Source: Candidatus Yanofskyibacteriota bacterium
GTDB taxonomy: Bacteria > Patescibacteriota > Minisyncoccia > 2-02-FULL-40-12 > IGHO2-01-FULL-4-A
Length of the DNA stretch: 41,979 nt
NCBI GenBank assembly: GCA_016185545.1
Contig: JACPNJ010000004.1
Span: 1 to 41,979 of the forward strand
Reading direction: 5' to 3'
The translations under genes were made by a program, and so were the position numbers. Below the pieces are notes generated by a model that ran no database searches, was not told where the DNA came from, and was given only the letters and a program-made list of their open reading frames with translations. Below, one piece after another: positions 1,552-27,702 of the stretch (its first letter is position 1; each line of letters starts with the position of its first letter).

Positions 1552-3852
1552 GTGTTAATAATTATGTTAATGATTAATCTAACTACCCCAATTGAAAAAC
1601 TTGCCCGTGTCGGACCAAGATTTTCAACGCGGTTGAAAAAACTGGGGATTAAAACCGTTCGCGATTTGCTTTGGCATTTTCCCGCGCGTTACGAAGATTA
1701 CAGCAAGCTATCGTTAATATCTGATGTTAATAGCGTGGGTCAAATGGTGAGTATTGCCGGTAAAATAGCAGATATAGAGTTAACCCGATCGTGGCGGCGG
1801 CACATGACAATAATCAACGCAACAATTAAAGACAAAAGCGGCTTAATTCACGCAGTTTGGTTTAATCAACCCTACATAACCGACGCCCTCAAAGTTGGAA
1901 CATTTGTCAGCTTATCCGGCAAAACTTCGCTAGACAAAAATGGGCTATACCTATCTTCACCTTCTTATGAAAAAATTGACTCATCAACCCATAACCTAAA
2001 ACCTATAACCTATAACCTAGTTCATACTGGCCGTCTAGTGCCTATCTATCCCGAAACCGAAGGCCTCACTTCTAAATATATGCGTTTCCTAATTAAGCCC
2101 CTGCTTGCTCAAATTTCCGCCCAAGGCGGATCCGCTTCTGGCGGAAAATCCATATCTGATCCTCTGCCGCTAGAATTGCTCACAAAATATAATTTTCCCG
2201 CGCTTGCTTACGCGCTTCAGGCAATACACTTCCCTGAAAATCTTAAACAAGCCGCTGCGGCAAAACAAAGATTCGCTTTTGAGGAAATCTTGCTTTTCCA
2301 ATTGCGGGTTTTACGCGACCACAGGCAATTGCAGTCGCTGAAAGCCCCGCAAATCAAATTCAATAAGGAACTCGTCGCAAGTTTTGTTAAAAAATTGCCT
2401 TTTGAATTGACTAACGACCAGCGAATCGCGGCTTATGAGATTCTACAGGATTTAGAAAGACCTTTTCCAATGAACCGCCTGCTTAACGGTGACGTCGGCT
2501 CCGGTAAAACAGTTGTAGCGCTCATTGCCGCGTATCAAACAATAAACGCCGGCTTGCAGGCGGTATTTATGGCGCCGACGGAAATATTGGCTCGCCAGCA
2601 TTTCCAAACCATAACGGAAATGCTGGCGAGCCAATCACCAATTAAAATCGGCCTGCTCATCGGGGGTGAAGCAAAACAATGGCCTAATGATGAAACTGAG
2701 ACCGAAAAAATACCAAAAAAATTAATGTATAAAAAAATTGCCGCCGGCGAAATAAATTTACTGATTGGCACGCACGCGGTTATACAGAAAGATGTAATAT
2801 TTAAAAATCTTGGATTAGTCGTTATTGATGAACAACATAGATTTGGCGTGGAACAGCGAATGAAACTGGTTAAAAATTCAAACCTATCACCTATCACCTA
2901 TCACCTATCACCTCACCTCTTGAGCATGACAGCCACCCCCATACCACGCACCCTTGCTCTTACGATTTATGGTGACTTAGATATCTCTTTGATAAAAGAA
3001 AAACCAAAGGGCAGGCAACAAATTATTACAAAAATCATACCGCGCAATAAAAGAGATGGCGCTCATAAATTTATAGAACAGCAAATCAAAAACGGACGCC
3101 AAGTTTTCGTTATATGTCCACGAATTGAAATGTCTAAGACGGATGGATTTGCACGAGCCAAACCAATCTCACAGGCAAAGTTAGTTTGGGCTGAAGTCAA
3201 AGCCGTTACCGAAGAATACGAAAAACTGTCAAAAAATGTTTTTCCGCAATATCGTGTAGCTATGCTTCATGGCCGACTTAAATCCAAAGTAAAAGATGAG
3301 ATTATGAAAAAATTCAAAGATGGACACTATGACATCTTAGTCTCCACTTCTGTCGTGGAAGTTGGCGTGGATATACACAATGCCACAATTATGATGATCG
3401 AATCGGCCGAGAGATTCGGCTTGGCCCAGTTGCATCAGTTTCGCGGACGAGTAGGCAGAGGGCCGCATCAATCGTATTGCTTTTTATTTACAAGTCCCGT
3501 TAGAAACCACCCTGCCGAAGGCACGGCTACGACCGCCTCGGGACGCCCTACTTCTAACGGAACAAGCTCATCTGACACACCGGTGGGCCGCCATTTGCGC
3601 GCGCTTGAACTAACTGACGACGGTTTCCAACTCGCTGAAATGGATTTAAAAATACGCGGTCCCGGAGAATTCACTGGCACTCAGCAATCAGGCATTCCCG
3701 ATATTGCCATGGCCTCCCTTTCTGATCTGGATCTAATAAAAAAAGCCAGGTTGGAAGCCCGGCTGTTGCTGAAAGATGATCCTGCACTAAAACACTATCC
3801 TTTGCTTGCCATCCGGCTGGCTGAAATACAAAGATTAGTACATTTTGAGTAA
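1552..3852 (+). CDS. recG: ATP-dependent DNA helicase RecG
   Basis: RecG is a superfamily 2 helicase that regresses stalled forks and processes branched DNA. The N-terminal wedge/OB region is followed by motif I GDVGSGKT (about 313-320), Ia APTEILARQH, II DEQHRFG (about 425), III SMTATPIPRT, and the C-terminal motifs VGVDIHNA and QFRGRVGRG. Its length (766 aa) is about 60-90 aa above typical. The extra length includes repeat-derived stretches: NLKPITYNL (1986-2020), ISAQGGSASGGK (a palindrome near 2110-2148), NLSPITYHLSPHL (2881-2921) and a Ser/Thr-rich loop near residues 660-680. The listed start is GTG 1552; ATG 1564 or 1570 with GGCGG upstream is equally likely. The 3' end overlaps a convergent gene by 18 bp. 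Confidence 0.96.
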   Translation: MLIIMLMINLTTPIEKLARVGPRFSTRLKKLGIKTVRDLLWHFPARYEDYSKLSLISDVNSVGQMVSIAGKIADIELTRSWRRHMTIINATIKDKSGLIHAVWFNQPYITDALKVGTFVSLSGKTSLDKNGLYLSSPSYEKIDSSTHNLKPITYNLVHTGRLVPIYPETEGLTSKYMRFLIKPLLAQISAQGGSASGGKSISDPLPLELLTKYNFPALAYALQAIHFPENLKQAAAAKQRFAFEEILLFQLRVLRDHRQLQSLKAPQIKFNKELVASFVKKLPFELTNDQRIAAYEILQDLERPFPMNRLLNGDVGSGKTVVALIAAYQTINAGLQAVFMAPTEILARQHFQTITEMLASQSPIKIGLLIGGEAKQWPNDETETEKIPKKLMYKKIAAGEINLLIGTHAVIQKDVIFKNLGLVVIDEQHRFGVEQRMKLVKNSNLSPITYHLSPHLLSMTATPIPRTLALTIYGDLDISLIKEKPKGRQQIITKIIPRNKRDGAHKFIEQQIKNGRQVFVICPRIEMSKTDGFARAKPISQAKLVWAEVKAVTEEYEKLSKNVFPQYRVAMLHGRLKSKVKDEIMKKFKDGHYDILVSTSVVEVGVDIHNATIMMIESAERFGLAQLHQFRGRVGRGPHQSYCFLFTSPVRNHPAEGTATTASGRPTSNGTSSSDTPVGRHLRALELTDDGFQLAEMDLKIRGPGEFTGTQQSGIPDIAMASLSDLDLIKKARLEARLLLKDDPALKHYPLLAIRLAEIQRLVHFE
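2586..2635. repeat. 20-bp perfect inverted repeat inside recG motif Ia
   Basis: ATTGGCTCGCCAGCATTTCC (2586-2605) is exactly complementary to 2616-2635, with a 10-base loop. It encodes LARQHFQTITEMLASQ, which fits the RecG family without an obvious insertion, so a conserved coding segment has the form of a long hairpin. Confidence 0.9.
2881..2921. repeat. CCTATCA tandem repeat in recG
   Basis: Five units of CACCTAT(C)-type sequence run in frame between motif II and the SMTATP motif, encoding a short NLSPITYHLSPHL-like loop. A related run (AACCTATAACCTATAACC) is at 1986-2020 in the same gene. Confidence 0.85.
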
Positions 3853-6805: not shown

Positions 6806-6877
6806 AGGTGTCAGGTGTCAGGTGTCAGGTGTCAGGTTTAATTTTCTGTAACCTAAAACCTGTAACCTGAAACCTAA
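6806..6877. repeat. Two short tandem-repeat tracts upstream of holA
   Basis: Four to five perfect GGTGTCA units (6806-6838) are followed by CCTAAAACCTGTAACCTGAAACCT (6850-6877). They fill the 70-bp gap between holA and the DUF3048 gene, so the holA ribosome-binding region is partly made of repeat. The units are complementary in style (AGGT versus ACCT). Confidence 0.9.
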
Positions 6878-7869
6878 TTAGTTACGATTTCCACCCACAC
6901 ACTCCCTGCTACGAATGGTATTTCCTTGTGGTTTTGATCGTAGAAAAACAGTTTTGCACGGTCATTTTTTTTCTCCCAAGTTCCCGTAATCACTGCGCCA
7001 TTTTTATAAACTAACAGTCCGCCGCTTCCCACCGTTTTAACTCTTATATAATCCTTGTTTATCGGCGACCAGGTTGTTTTCATTATGACAATATTCTTGG
7101 CTTCAACTTGTTTGCCGGTATTTTTATCAATTTCTGGTTTGCTGGCTCGCGAGCGAAAATATGAGTTAGTTTCTTTTTTATATTCCCAGACAACCCTAAA
7201 TTCTTTGTTGAAAATCGGCCCCGGTTCAATCTCGCCCTTACTGCCATCTTCCTCATGCATATAAGAAACTTCGGAACTACTCAATTTATAACCCAATTTT
7301 GAAGAGATTTCACCGAGCAGATTAAAATTAGTAAAAGCATTGTGGGGCATCGGTATGGATTTCTCACGGTAATAAATCGTGCCGTCGTATTTAAGGCCGT
7401 CAATATTATCAATGATACCGGCATTAAGTTCATCTAAAACCTCTTTTTCGCCTCCGAAATGAGCGTAAATCGCATTGAACCCCAGGGCCAGCGGAACAAA
7501 ATCAAGCCGCGATGAACGCACTGAACCAAGTTTTTTTGGCCGGTTACACTGATAAACCGCCATCATTCGCGTGAAGCCGTTAGCAACCACTGGCATTTCA
7601 AAAACCATATCCGCCTCCCCCACTCCCGACAACGGCCTCGCCTCTTTATCCGATGAGAGCATCACCGCAAACGGCCGCGCGTTATAATTCTCACATTCAA
7701 TTCCGGCAACCGTACTTGGGTTTAATTTTTTATCGGATATTGAAGTACTATTAAGTATGTCAATTTTCTTGTTATCAATCTTCGCCAACCCAAAACCCAG
7801 CAAAACTATTGCCACCACTGCCCCAATCCATATATAAAGTTTTTTTCGTGATATCGCCTCAAGCGTCAT
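6874..7869 (-). CDS. DUF3048 (YerB-like) membrane-anchored protein
   Basis: This 331-aa protein has one N-terminal TM segment (YIWIGAVVAIVLLGFGLA) and an extracytoplasmic domain with the DUF3048 signature order: RPFAVMLSSD, GVGEADMVFE, RMMAVYQ, LGSVRSSRLDF, AHFGGEKEVL, PHNAFTN. The family is known from Bacillus YerB and is widespread in CPR; its biochemical role is unknown. The start overlaps the stop of the upstream Fic gene by 4 bp (ATGA), so the two are translationally coupled. The stop lies next to the repeat tract upstream of holA. Confidence 0.92.
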   Translation of the reverse strand: MTLEAISRKKLYIWIGAVVAIVLLGFGLAKIDNKKIDILNSTSISDKKLNPSTVAGIECENYNARPFAVMLSSDKEARPLSGVGEADMVFEMPVVANGFTRMMAVYQCNRPKKLGSVRSSRLDFVPLALGFNAIYAHFGGEKEVLDELNAGIIDNIDGLKYDGTIYYREKSIPMPHNAFTNFNLLGEISSKLGYKLSSSEVSYMHEEDGSKGEIEPGPIFNKEFRVVWEYKKETNSYFRSRASKPEIDKNTGKQVEAKNIVIMKTTWSPINKDYIRVKTVGSGGLLVYKNGAVITGTWEKKNDRAKLFFYDQNHKEIPFVAGSVWVEIVTN

Positions 7870-9108: not shown

Positions 9109-9295
9109 GTCAAAAATTATTTAAAGCGAGGCCATTATGCCTCCTAGCACCGTCAAAAGAGTGGATTGCATGGTTTGCGAGCAGTATAATAGTAAAACAC
9201 TGCGAGCAAAATCCACGCTTTTGACGGAACGTAGAATTCTCGCTGGGAATTCAAGTGGTGATAGGAGGCATAATGGCGAGCGGATAATTTTTGAC
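9109..9295 (+). repeat. Nested palindromic element, family R, copy 2
   Basis: The outer arms are GTCAAAAATTAT (9109-9120) and ATAATTTTTGAC (9284-9295), perfect over 12 bp. The next layer is CCATTATGCCTCCTA..CACC with its complement, and the core arms are CCGTCAAAAGAGTGGATT / AATCCACGCTTTTGACGG. A side hairpin, GAATTC-TCGCTG-GGAATTC, keeps its stem in copy 3 with different bases (GCAACC..GGTTGC). No ORF is present. It occupies the whole space between the terminator and mutM. Confidence 0.92.
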
Positions 9296-9303
9296 GTAGC
9301 AAG

Positions 9304-13395: not shown

Positions 13396-13955
13396 TTCTT
13401 CGCTCCTCCGGAGCTTCGAAGTGCAAGCATTTCTTCTTTAGGCGAAGAAGTGCCCTTCCGAAGCTTTAGCGAAGGAGGGCCATATATATTATTAATCGTA
13501 ATTTTTCTCGTTTTTATGCCTATGTGGTCAATATGCACTTTAATATATTTACTAGGCAGTATCTTTTTCACTCGATCAGACCACTCAATTAAAACAATAT
13601 TTCTCGGGTCAGCCATAATTTCTTTTATGCCAAGCGGGATTAAGTCGTGGTAATTTTTTAATCTATACGCATCTATATGATATAAAAACCTGTAACCTGT
13701 AACCTGCTTGCCCCGTTGCGAAGCTACTCGGGGTAACCTGTAACCTTTTAACAAAACGAATGTCGGGCTGGTTATACGCGACTTGATACCAAACGCACCG
13801 GCAAAACCCTTAACAAAAGTCGTCTTGCCGGCGCCAAGTTCACCTTCAAGAGCAAAAGCTTGAGCGTGTTGTTGCAAACTATTTTTAATAACCTTTTTAG
13901 CTAGGTTACTTGCTATGTTTTTGGTTTGCCTAACTCCTTTAGATTGGAATTTCAT
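13392..13955 (-). CDS. tsaE: tRNA threonylcarbamoyladenosine biosynthesis protein TsaE
   Basis: TsaE is the ATPase partner of TsaB/TsaD in t6A37 modification. The 187-aa protein carries GELGAGKTTFVKGF (Walker A, near 38-51), SPTFVLLKGY, HIDAYRL and IVLIEW. Typical TsaE is about 150 aa. The excess lies in two repeat-derived parts: an internal RLPRVASQRGKQVTG, encoded by CCTGTAACCTG repeats with an embedded CCCCG..CGGGG hairpin (about 13686-13747), and a C-terminal tail (GPPSLKLRKGTSSPKEE) encoded by nested palindromic DNA at 13397-13480. The stop overlaps the polA start (ATGA), so the tail also alters the coupling region. Confidence 0.93.
   Translation of the reverse strand: MKFQSKGVRQTKNIASNLAKKVIKNSLQQHAQAFALEGELGAGKTTFVKGFAGAFGIKSRITSPTFVLLKGYRLPRVASQRGKQVTGYRFLYHIDAYRLKNYHDLIPLGIKEIMADPRNIVLIEWSDRVKKILPSKYIKVHIDHIGIKTRKITINNIYGPPSLKLRKGTSSPKEEMLALRSSGGAKK
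13686..13747. repeat. CCTGTAA repeat with embedded hairpin in tsaE
   Basis: AACCTGTAACCTGTAACCTG is interrupted by CCCCGTTGCGAAGCTACTCGGGG and then resumes as TAACCTGTAACCT. Here one repeat class appears inserted into the other, in frame within tsaE. Confidence 0.85.
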
Positions 13956-13992: not shown

Positions 13993-14913
13993 CTAAAACC
14001 CTCTGATTTCTTTGAGTATTTTTATATCCGCTTCTCTTTTGGAGTCATCAGTTTCTAAAAGCCAATCAATACTGCGAAATTCTGTGGCGTTAAGAATATT
14101 CGCCAAGCCGTTTTTGCCAATAAATCCATCGTTTATATGTTCATGGCGATCGCGTCTGCCACCCAAATCGACTTTGGAATCATTAACATGGGCCAGTTTT
14201 AGAAATTCCAATCCTATTTTTGTATTGAATTCTTCCAATACATTTTTAACTCCTTCCGCAGTTCTAAAATCATAGCCGGAAGCAAAAGCATGACAGGTAT
14301 CAAAACACACCCCGTAGTGAAAATTGGAATTGCTTGCAATCTTACCCGCACCTTCGGTGCGGGTTTTTCCAATTTCTACTACGGGGCAGGTTCCGCCTAT
14401 CAGTAACCCGAGTTGTCTTAAAATTTCCCCAATTTCATCAAAAGTATCTCCAATGATATTTCCTGTACCGGCGGCAATTTCAAGAAGAAGTTGGGTTGTA
14501 CCCTGATAGCCATCAAACGCTTGATTAATGGCGTCGGCAACCTTGGCAATGCCGTCTTCCAGTGTCTGACCCGTGTGAGAACCCAGATGAGTCATAACAT
14601 AACGCGCCCCAAGCAGACTCCCTCGTTCCAGTTCTTCTCTGACTACCTTGATGGAGCCGAGCCTAATCCGTGGCTCAAGCGAGGCAAAATTAATATAGTA
14701 AGGCGTATGTATATAAAAAGTTTCAAAATCACACTCCTTCATTTGCGATTTGAAATTAGCTATAATTGTTTGCGTAAGAATTGGCGCCGGTCCACCCTGC
14801 GGCGGCCGTGTGAAACATTGAAATGTTTCACAGCCTAAATCATTAGCACGCTTAGGTGCCATATGCACACCGCCGGATATGGAAACATGGGCTCCGATTC
14901 TTGGATTAGTCAT
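13993..14913 (-). CDS. nfo: Endonuclease IV (Nfo)
   Basis: Nfo is an AP endonuclease with a three-Zn TIM barrel. It starts with RIGAHVSISGG, then FYIHTPYYINFAS, MTHLGSHTG, LLLEIAAGTG (metal ligand Glu), GVCFDTCHAFASGYD, LAHVNDSKVDLGGRRDRHEHI and LLETDD, so the known metal ligands are all present. It is 306 aa, versus about 280 usual. The extra residues (CPVVEIGKTRTEGAGKIASN, about 185-205) are encoded by a nested palindrome at 14310-14386 inserted just before the FHYGVCFDTCHA motif. No clear Shine-Dalgarno precedes the ATG. It heads the minus-strand run that continues to tsaE and polA. Confidence 0.96.
   Translation of the reverse strand: MTNPRIGAHVSISGGVHMAPKRANDLGCETFQCFTRPPQGGPAPILTQTIIANFKSQMKECDFETFYIHTPYYINFASLEPRIRLGSIKVVREELERGSLLGARYVMTHLGSHTGQTLEDGIAKVADAINQAFDGYQGTTQLLLEIAAGTGNIIGDTFDEIGEILRQLGLLIGGTCPVVEIGKTRTEGAGKIASNSNFHYGVCFDTCHAFASGYDFRTAEGVKNVLEEFNTKIGLEFLKLAHVNDSKVDLGGRRDRHEHINDGFIGKNGLANILNATEFRSIDWLLETDDSKREADIKILKEIRGF
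14310..14386. repeat. GTAGTGAA/TTCTACTAC palindromic element inside nfo
   Basis: The outer arms CCCCGTAGTGAAAATTGGAA (14310-14329) and TTCCAATTTCTACTACGGGG (14367-14386) pair except at a GA/CT bulge. The inner hairpin is ACCCGCACC (14344-14352) with GGTGCGGGT (14356-14364). It is in frame. The same outer ends occur at 21984-22018 and 27573-27702. Confidence 0.92.
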
Positions 14914-21697: not shown

Positions 21698-22083
21698 TCA
21701 AAAATTACAAACCTCGCTCCACCCCCTAATTTTTCTTCCTGTATCATGCCTTCATTACAAATTGCGGTCGCTGGCTAAATTGCTGGACACAGATTGGTTC
21801 CCCGTTTACCGCTTGAAAACTGCGTCACTTCGTTCCTTGTTTTACTGCGCGTTTTCCGACCAATCTTTGCGTTACCCAGCAATTCTTGCTCGTCGAAGGT
21901 TCCAATGTGTGGCAGGGACCCACGAAGTGGGACGCCACATAACATTGGAATCGCTGTTAACGCCAGCTCCCTTATTTGCTTTGCCCCGTAGTGAAGCCTT
22001 CGGCTTCTACTACTGGGGTATAATCGGCAGATAATGTCATAAAAATCAGGGGGTTGCGCTTGTGTTAGGTTTGTAATTTTTGA
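21698..22083. repeat. 386-bp nested palindromic element
   Basis: The outer arms TCAAAAATTACAAACCT (21698-21714) and AGGTTTGTAATTTTTGA (22067-22083) are perfect over 17 bp. The next layer is CCCCCTAATTTTT (21722-21734) with AAAAATCAGGGGG (22041-22053). Inside are AATTGCTGG/CCAGCAATT (21778-21786, 21876-21884), GATTGGT/ACCAATC, a long stem TTCCAATGT..ACATTGGAA (21900-21951) around CCCAC-GAA-GTGGG, and the GTAGTGAA/TTCTACTAC hairpin at 21984-22018. The six-frame ORFs here are shadows. It is a multi-branched structure with no coding potential. Confidence 0.85.
21984..22018. repeat. GTAGTGAA/TTCTACTAC hairpin, intergenic copy
   Basis: CCCCGTAGTGAAGCC-TTC-GGCTTCTACTACTGGGG. It has the same ends as the elements inside nfo (14310) and at 27573, including the extra unpaired T in TTCTACTAC. 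Confidence 0.88.
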
Positions 22084-23217: not shown

Positions 23218-23422
23218 TGCCCCATTAAAATTATCTGCAGGCGAGGCCATTATGCCTCATAGCACCGTCAAAAGAGTGGATTGCACGGTTTGCGAGCAGT
23301 ATAATAGTAAAAGTAAATCACTGCGAGCAAAATCCACGCTTTTGACGGAACACAGCAACCTCGCTGGGGTTGCTAGTGGTGATAGGAGGCATAATGGCGA
23401 GCGGATAATTTTTGATGGGGCA
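23218..23422 (+). repeat. Nested palindromic element, family R, copy 3
   Basis: The outermost arms are TGCCCCAT-AAAATTAT (23218-23234) and ATAATTTTTGATGGGGCA (23405-23422). The next layer is CCATTATGCCTC with GAGGCATAATGG, then core arms CCGTCAAAAGAGTGGATT / AATCCACGCTTTTGACGG. The core is nearly identical to copies 1 and 2 apart from a 5-base insertion (AGTAA) in the loop. The TGCCCCAT/ATGGGGCA part is specific to this copy. It ends just before comM's 3' end. Confidence 0.93.
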
Positions 23423-23426
23423 ATAA

Positions 23427-25087: not shown

Positions 25088-25145
25088 ACTTCTGCGCACA
25101 AGGGGTTTTGATTTCTTCTAAAACCTAAAAACTAACACCTAAAAC

Positions 25146-25520
25146 CTAAATCAGTATGGCTTTTTTGGCACAATCCACGCAAAATCTGGCTACTGGAATA
25201 ACTTTGAGACGCCTAATATCAATAGGGGATGAGCATTTTTCGCAAACACCATAAGTATTCTCGTCTATTTTCTTAATTGTTTCGTTGATTTCGCGCAAAC
25301 GCAACTCAAGGTTTTGCTCAACCGCTCTTTCTTGCTCCGAATCTGTTACGCTATGTGCTTTTTCGTCAGAAGTATCAGATTGATCGGCAGAATGAAAATG
25401 AGACTTGTAATCACCTTTTACAGTGGGATTTTCAGTAGTAAATTCCCCGAGCACCTTCTCAATATTCGTTTTCTCGGTTAGCAGATCTTTTTTTAATTTT
25501 TTTTGTTCATTTTTGTCCAT
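25146..25520 (-). CDS. DksA/TraR C4-type zinc finger protein
   Basis: From ATG 25520 (MDKNEQKKLKK) the protein is 124 aa; the track's longer ORF reads through palindromic DNA upstream and is rejected. The N-terminal coiled coil (KKDLLTEKTNIEKVL..EQNLELRLREINETIKKID) is followed by the C4 finger CEKCSSPIDIRRLKVIPVARFCVDC, as in the DksA/TraR family. DksA acts in the secondary channel of RNA polymerase with ppGpp. This short form lacks the full DksA N-terminus, and the DxxDxA tip is not evident, so it is safer called DksA/TraR-like. It is a single-gene unit. Confidence 0.9.
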   Translation of the reverse strand: MDKNEQKKLKKDLLTEKTNIEKVLGEFTTENPTVKGDYKSHFHSADQSDTSDEKAHSVTDSEQERAVEQNLELRLREINETIKKIDENTYGVCEKCSSPIDIRRLKVIPVARFCVDCAKKAILI

Positions 25521-27469: not shown

Positions 27470-27545
27470 AGGTTTTAGGTTTTAGGTTTTAGGTTTTAAG
27501 AAAATTTATAAATCCAAAAACTAACACCTAGTAGCTAAGACCTGA
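27470..27545. repeat. GGTTTTA tandem repeat and relatives
   Basis: Four units of GGTTTTA (27470-27498) are followed by AAAACTAACACCTAGTAGCTAAGACC. It is close to a telomere-type heptamer and lies just upstream of the Pro-rich membrane protein gene. Confidence 0.9.
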
Positions 27546-27572: not shown

Positions 27573-27702
27573 CCCGGTAGTGAAACTTCCAGCAATGTCT
27601 TGGGTTTTTGTGGAAAAGTAAAAATTAGAGCACGCCAGTTGTTTATGTTTATTTGGTTAATATTCGTGACATTAGGAAATAACTGGAAGTTCTACTACCG
27701 GG
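27573..27702. repeat. GTAGTGAA/TTCTACTAC element, 130-bp copy
   Basis: CCCGGTAGTGAAACTTCCAG (27573-27592) pairs with CTGGAAGTTCTACTACCGGG (27683-27702) with the same extra T as the other copies. An inner pair is AATGTC (27594-27599) with GACATT (about 27669). The outer GG/CC and the ACTTCCAG arm differ from the nfo copy but remain paired. Confidence 0.9.

Follow-up and report, generated by a model that had tools for sequence, protein, structure and literature searches.

It is highly probable that the 77-nt palindrome lying in frame within nfo (positions 14310-14386, minus strand) is a MITE-like mobile element of a dispersed family, here called C, and that it is tolerated and translated in an endonuclease IV that is probably still active. 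The window (the whole stretch of DNA analysed, 41,979 nucleotides) is contig C8 of a genome of 853 kb in 8 contigs (G000); judged by nfo, the named organisms closest to it are Candidatus Yanofskybacteria MAGs. The original prediction had placed a palindrome at exactly these positions, and its arms, stems and fold agree. The outer arms are CCCCGTAGT...ACTACGGGG, an inner second stem is made by AAATTGGAA/TTCCAATTT, and there are two small hairpins besides. The folding energy of the element as single-stranded DNA is -25.9 kcal/mol; shuffled versions give -9.1 +/- 2.4 (z = -7.05; 0 of 200 shuffles as good). The reading frame runs open across it, again as predicted, in a minus-strand ORF of 306 aa (13993-14913); the element encodes the peptide PVVEIGKTRTEGAGKIASNSNFHY together with shared end codons, and the anticipated gain of about 25 residues is 25 when measured against G003, a species of the same genus. 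Tryptic digestion of the protein is predicted to give TEGAGK and IASNSNFHYGVCFDTCHAFASGYDFR.

Apart from the insert, the product has the features of an endonuclease IV. The ORF product matches AP_endonuc_2, and solved endonuclease IV structures match it on both flanks of the insert. It has the TIM barrel and the nine metal ligands of the class: alignment with the E. coli enzyme, whose ligands we take to be H69, H109, E145, D179, H182, H216, D229, H231 and E261, finds all nine present, so that the metal-ligand motifs are indeed untouched. Outside the insert the protein is about 74% identical to that of G003, the median ortholog pair of the two genomes being 76% identical. Modelling of the loop position, which had been proposed as a check on the original prediction, was done with AlphaFold2. 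Mean pLDDT is 89.5; residues 172-195, between a helix (157-166) and a strand (199-204), fall below 50, the rest is mostly above 90, and the model matches the E. coli enzyme (TM about 0.9) and that of Thermotoga. The insert is thus predicted to be a disordered helix-to-strand loop in an otherwise normal and confident fold. The ligands aligned with E. coli D179 and H182 come at the end of strand 199-204; with all ligands at the far strand ends, TIM-barrel geometry would put the loop on the barrel face opposite the active site.

The nfo gene was found in 34 of the 58 genomes searched, G000 counted among them. The additional 25 or so residues are absent from Nfo of G001, G003, G004, G005, G007 and more distant relatives, as well as from the Nfo proteins of known structure; in G001 and G003, ...VKKLNGF or ...VKNINGL is directly joined to GGVCFDTCHAF or SGVCFDTCHAF. 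This alignment with sister genomes, likewise proposed at the outset, therefore leaves the close relatives without the insert, and the Nfo proteins of other lineages yielded no homologous residues of conserved sequence that would mark a normal family loop. Among 11 homologs aligned with the G000 protein, a comparable extension occurs in G002 (L088) only. We consider the chance that the segment is a natural Nfo loop, palindromic by accident, to be close to negligible: loop length does vary by a few residues among relatives, but extensions of about 24-25 residues are confined to G000 and G002, where they are made by different palindromes, and palindromes of the same type recur elsewhere in the genome, intergenic copies included.

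The extension in G002 deserves separate comment. It is made by another palindrome, CCCGCCTAAATTTT...AACTTAGGCGGG, with TTTG on both flanks, which belongs to family B; in G000 this family is found in the gene for a methylpurine-DNA glycosylase. The G002 and G000 inserts, about 24-25 residues each, have no sequence likeness to one another. Moreover, the G002 gene (L088:3000-3836) carries a deletion near residues 54-75 with a change of frame and has lost one ligand, and may therefore represent either a pseudogene or an error of assembly. Descent of both inserts from one shared insertion was rejected, the palindromes being of different families and the G002 gene broken. This gene is evidence of repeated insertion at one loop only and poor evidence of tolerance. 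Recurrence in the same loop might be taken to mean that the extension was positively selected, giving Nfo a new property such as DNA or partner binding. We regard this as scarcely probable, since the insert is predicted to be disordered, the two inserts are unlike in sequence, and the frame-shifting deletion in G002 means that recurrence says little on benefit.

The nfo element is one of many. The palindromes with CCCG ends fall into three families. Family C has the form CCCCGTAGTAGAA...TTCACTACGGGG and occurs in nfo, in a gene for a DUF4012 protein and at the intergenic positions C1:82585 and C1:160853. Family B is CCCGCCTAA..., and family A has the ends TCTAACGGG, with arms YCCCGTTAGA...TCTAACGGGR. 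Exact family A arm pairs number 28 in the genome, whereas a simulated genome matched in dinucleotide content has 0; copies lie in secA, gyrA, recG, folD, dcd, rluA and others, some nested in one another. These host names are presumptive, assigned from the sequences and from knowledge of the families, with Pfam checks for recG, nfo, tsaE, polA, the glycosylase and DUF4012 only. With strict patterns, family A was detected in 53 and family C in 11 of 384 sampled genomes of the class, reversed control patterns giving 0 matches in the same set. Copies of family C were seen in G000, G002, G011, G037 and other Patescibacteria; arm patterns were needed to find them, a BLAST search with the nfo element returning one other copy only. 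Two further palindromes of this kind lie in the window: a 34-nt miniature at 21984-22017, within an ORF of 157 aa that is itself doubtful, the copy being probably intergenic, and a 130-nt family C-like element at 27573-27702, which is intergenic and has a longer interior. The copy in the DUF4012 gene is read in the same frame as that in nfo, giving a peptide P-x-V-E-I...F-H-Y-G-V; it lies in a linker too variable for dating by alignment.

Over the 19 stem pairs of 14 family C copies, 92.9% of cells are paired. Eight pairs show double changes, 0 of 500 shuffles being as good, and slid structures score far worse; the palindrome also has a conserved mismatch. This covariation argues that the hairpin persists as its sequence changes.

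Flanking sequences point to the way in which these elements move. In family C, 8 of 13 copies (two of the 13 being the same site in two species) have flanks that agree over exactly 4 bp, as compared with 3.2% of mismatched flanks, and no signal is seen at 5 bp or more. In family A, 18 of 30 copies have exact 4-bp duplications against 6.5% in the control, mostly at TNNA targets, if the complementary terminal base pair is taken as part of the element. Once this variable pair is so counted, neither family gives a duplication signal at widths of 5-6 bp; a 6-bp duplication for family A was rejected, as it resolves into 4 bp plus the terminal pair. On this evidence families A and C move by staggered-cut transposition, unlike REP/RAYT elements. 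The flanks of the nfo element itself, CCTG and TGTG in the gene sense, match at two of four bases only. By the family rule, CACA at 14306-14309 (TGTG in gene sense) is the probable retained target copy and CAGG at 14387-14390 (CCTG) the probable decayed one. The right copy is part of the conserved G-V-C-F-D codons, which makes it plausible that the target was TGTG and that the left copy, being free, has drifted. The net insert relative to G003 is 75 nt, against the 81 expected (77 + 4), so that one has to suppose either a later loss of two codons or an ancestral loop that was shorter.

Because its own duplication has decayed, we infer from the other copies that nfo was hit by the same mechanism. 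A non-autonomous family C palindrome would have jumped into the gene with a 4-bp target duplication, adding 81 nt or 27 codons, and would have landed in one of its stop-free frames. The landing site would be a TIM-barrel loop of the helix-to-strand side, able to take a floppy extension; the element would then be transcribed and translated as part of an enzyme that is probably still active. The presumed mover is a transposase recognising the hairpin ends. Between the long TIR pairs of G000 and G003 we found no transposase, only glycan-type genes (glycosyltransferase, methyltransferase), and a search between these pairs and at the Y1 genes (see below) gave no transposase with the elements' ends. 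In a glycan-type gene cluster of G000 (L014, C1:190194-195236), family A-like elements of 105-123 nt exactly fill several intergenic gaps, abutting the genes, and could supply promoters or leaders.

Besides tolerance at a surface loop, the original prediction had offered removal of the element from the RNA. Such removal, or skipping by the ribosome, would give a protein without the 25 residues. The RNA does form a strong hairpin on either strand, and its stem would bring the ends together. Against this stands the distribution of lengths. The sum of element and 4 nt can be divided by three for all copies within genes of G000 and G003, except one doubtful ORF and the copy in tgt, where there is an indel and the frame is still open; among intergenic copies, which are of any length, this holds for 6 of 17. 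For family A the commonest length, 71 + 4 = 75, already divides by three, and frame-keeping may be partly built in. A comparison of all flanks with the proteins of the other genome, meant to avoid counting intact ORFs only, showed no orthologous gene in G000 or G003 split out of frame. In-gene copies are free of stops in the frame used, the other frames of the same elements containing stops. Lastly, an Rfam scan of the window returned two tRNAs only and no known group I or II intron, ribozyme or other self-splicing RNA. Frames kept within genes and lengths left free between them argue for translation and against removal, which appears unlikely; together with skipping, we give it a very small probability. 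Of the two options, it is tolerance in a surface loop that is favoured, by the predicted disorder and the absence in close relatives as well as by frame-keeping and the Rfam result.

Similar inserts had been predicted in recG, tsaE and polA. That in recG is a family A element (3495-3562, plus strand) adding 24 residues in frame and flanked by a perfect CAAG/CAAG duplication. For tsaE the prediction was partly right: relative to G003 there is an insert, of nine residues, with a short CCCCG...CGGGG palindrome of 23 nt (13711-13733). An insert in polA is not supported: the product measures 848 aa in G000 and G003 alike, and no insert exceeds 2 residues. Among 488 reciprocal best hits between these two genomes there are 50 internal indels of 14-60 residues. 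Of these, 24 have a better fold than any window sampled from their gene, where about 1 would be expected (Mann-Whitney p = 3e-13). Large in-frame insertions in the genus thus come to a major extent from palindromic inserts. A near-identical family A insert occupies the same site in rluA of G000 (C6:88751-89746; two units, one nested) and of G003 (L190), genes about 75% identical, and is absent from G001 and from G002, though the latter is closer to G000; the pattern points to repeated insertion at preferred sites, loss or homogenisation.

Other insertions and repeats were noted in passing. The gyrA (C6:68402-72088) and gyrB (C7:2586-6032) genes of G000 contain in-frame inserts, of 391 and 432 aa respectively, that G003 lacks. 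The ends of these inserts are intein-like (start C, end HN-S), and a family A palindrome is present in gyrA besides. Short tandem repeats of the AACCTATAACCT type are dispersed in the window (1992-2022, 2880-2910, 6849-6879, 13679-13709, 25121-25151 and 27510-27538), partly in genes, where they encode peptides like KPITYNL and LSPITYH in RecG. A repeat of roughly 130-180 nt is present in three copies, one inverted, that are 84-98% alike (1076-1208, 9137-9302 and 23241-23423).

It is tempting to speculate, although we hold it to be less likely than otherwise, that one undescribed transposition system of Patescibacteria, which recognises the shape of the hairpin and its CCCG ends and otherwise little sequence, moves at least the three unlike families A, B and C with 4-bp duplications, repeatedly extends essential proteins in frame and reuses loops, as in nfo of G000 and G002 and rluA of G000 and G003. 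Between two species of one genus, many of the big in-frame insertions are palindromic inserts, in secA, gyrA, recG, folD and nfo among other genes. Sister species with empty sites, the target duplications, and the contrast of free and in-frame lengths make the gain of protein segments directly testable in reduced genomes. Such inserts will also mislead gene models and alignments in Patescibacteria.

Among known systems, REP/RAYT elements invite comparison, being palindromes inside replication and repair genes, with several families per genome (PMC3733652). Mobilisation of the nfo element by Y1 transposases would fit the presence of four RAYT-like Y1 genes in G000 (C1:261647-262318, C4:46287-46952, C5:49053-49715 and C5:94964-95635), the GTAG in the family C arm and the conserved mismatch. 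We nevertheless think it highly unlikely, and the Y1 enzymes were rejected as movers: their genes are flanked by palindromes of their own, of the ACTTAGAGGTTGAGCCTCTAAGT or TGCACGAC type, different from the elements described here, which were not found beside them. GTAG is internal to the family C arm rather than terminal, and is absent from family B. Finally, to our knowledge IS200/IS605-type transposition leaves no target-site duplication, in contrast to the 4-bp duplications of families A and C. REP units resembling the Y1-flank palindromes appear to encode short in-frame inserts, for example KEVEPL, in several genes.

In-frame protein-coding palindromes have so far been described mainly for Rickettsia, and for the candidate phyla radiation we found no report of them in the open-access literature searched. 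Rickettsia palindromic elements (RPE; Ogata 2000/2002; reviewed in PMC10969869, PMC3733652) are likewise palindromic, dispersed, of several families per genome, and inserted in frame in unrelated essential or housekeeping genes, to which they add tens of residues. The present elements share the in-frame position in protein genes; they differ in size (about 60-80 nt against about 150 nt), in their clear 4-bp duplications and in their hosts, Patescibacteria rather than Alphaproteobacteria. Their sequence also appears to differ: by inspection, the CGTC end tag of RPE-4 and RPE-6 is absent and the ends read CCCCGTAG... With bacterial MITEs (NEMIS, RUP, ERIC and others; PMC10969869, PMC3733652) they have in common terminal inverted repeats, here a 19-pair stem, a target-site duplication, here fixed at 4 bp (two of four bases in nfo itself), the lack of a transposase of their own, and sites both in and between genes. 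Unlike MITEs, they are very small, with an interior of variable hairpins and a stem kept by covariation, and no autonomous partner was found between long TIR pairs. They are thus best read as elements that work like RPE with a different sequence tag and that, by anatomy, are MITE-like.
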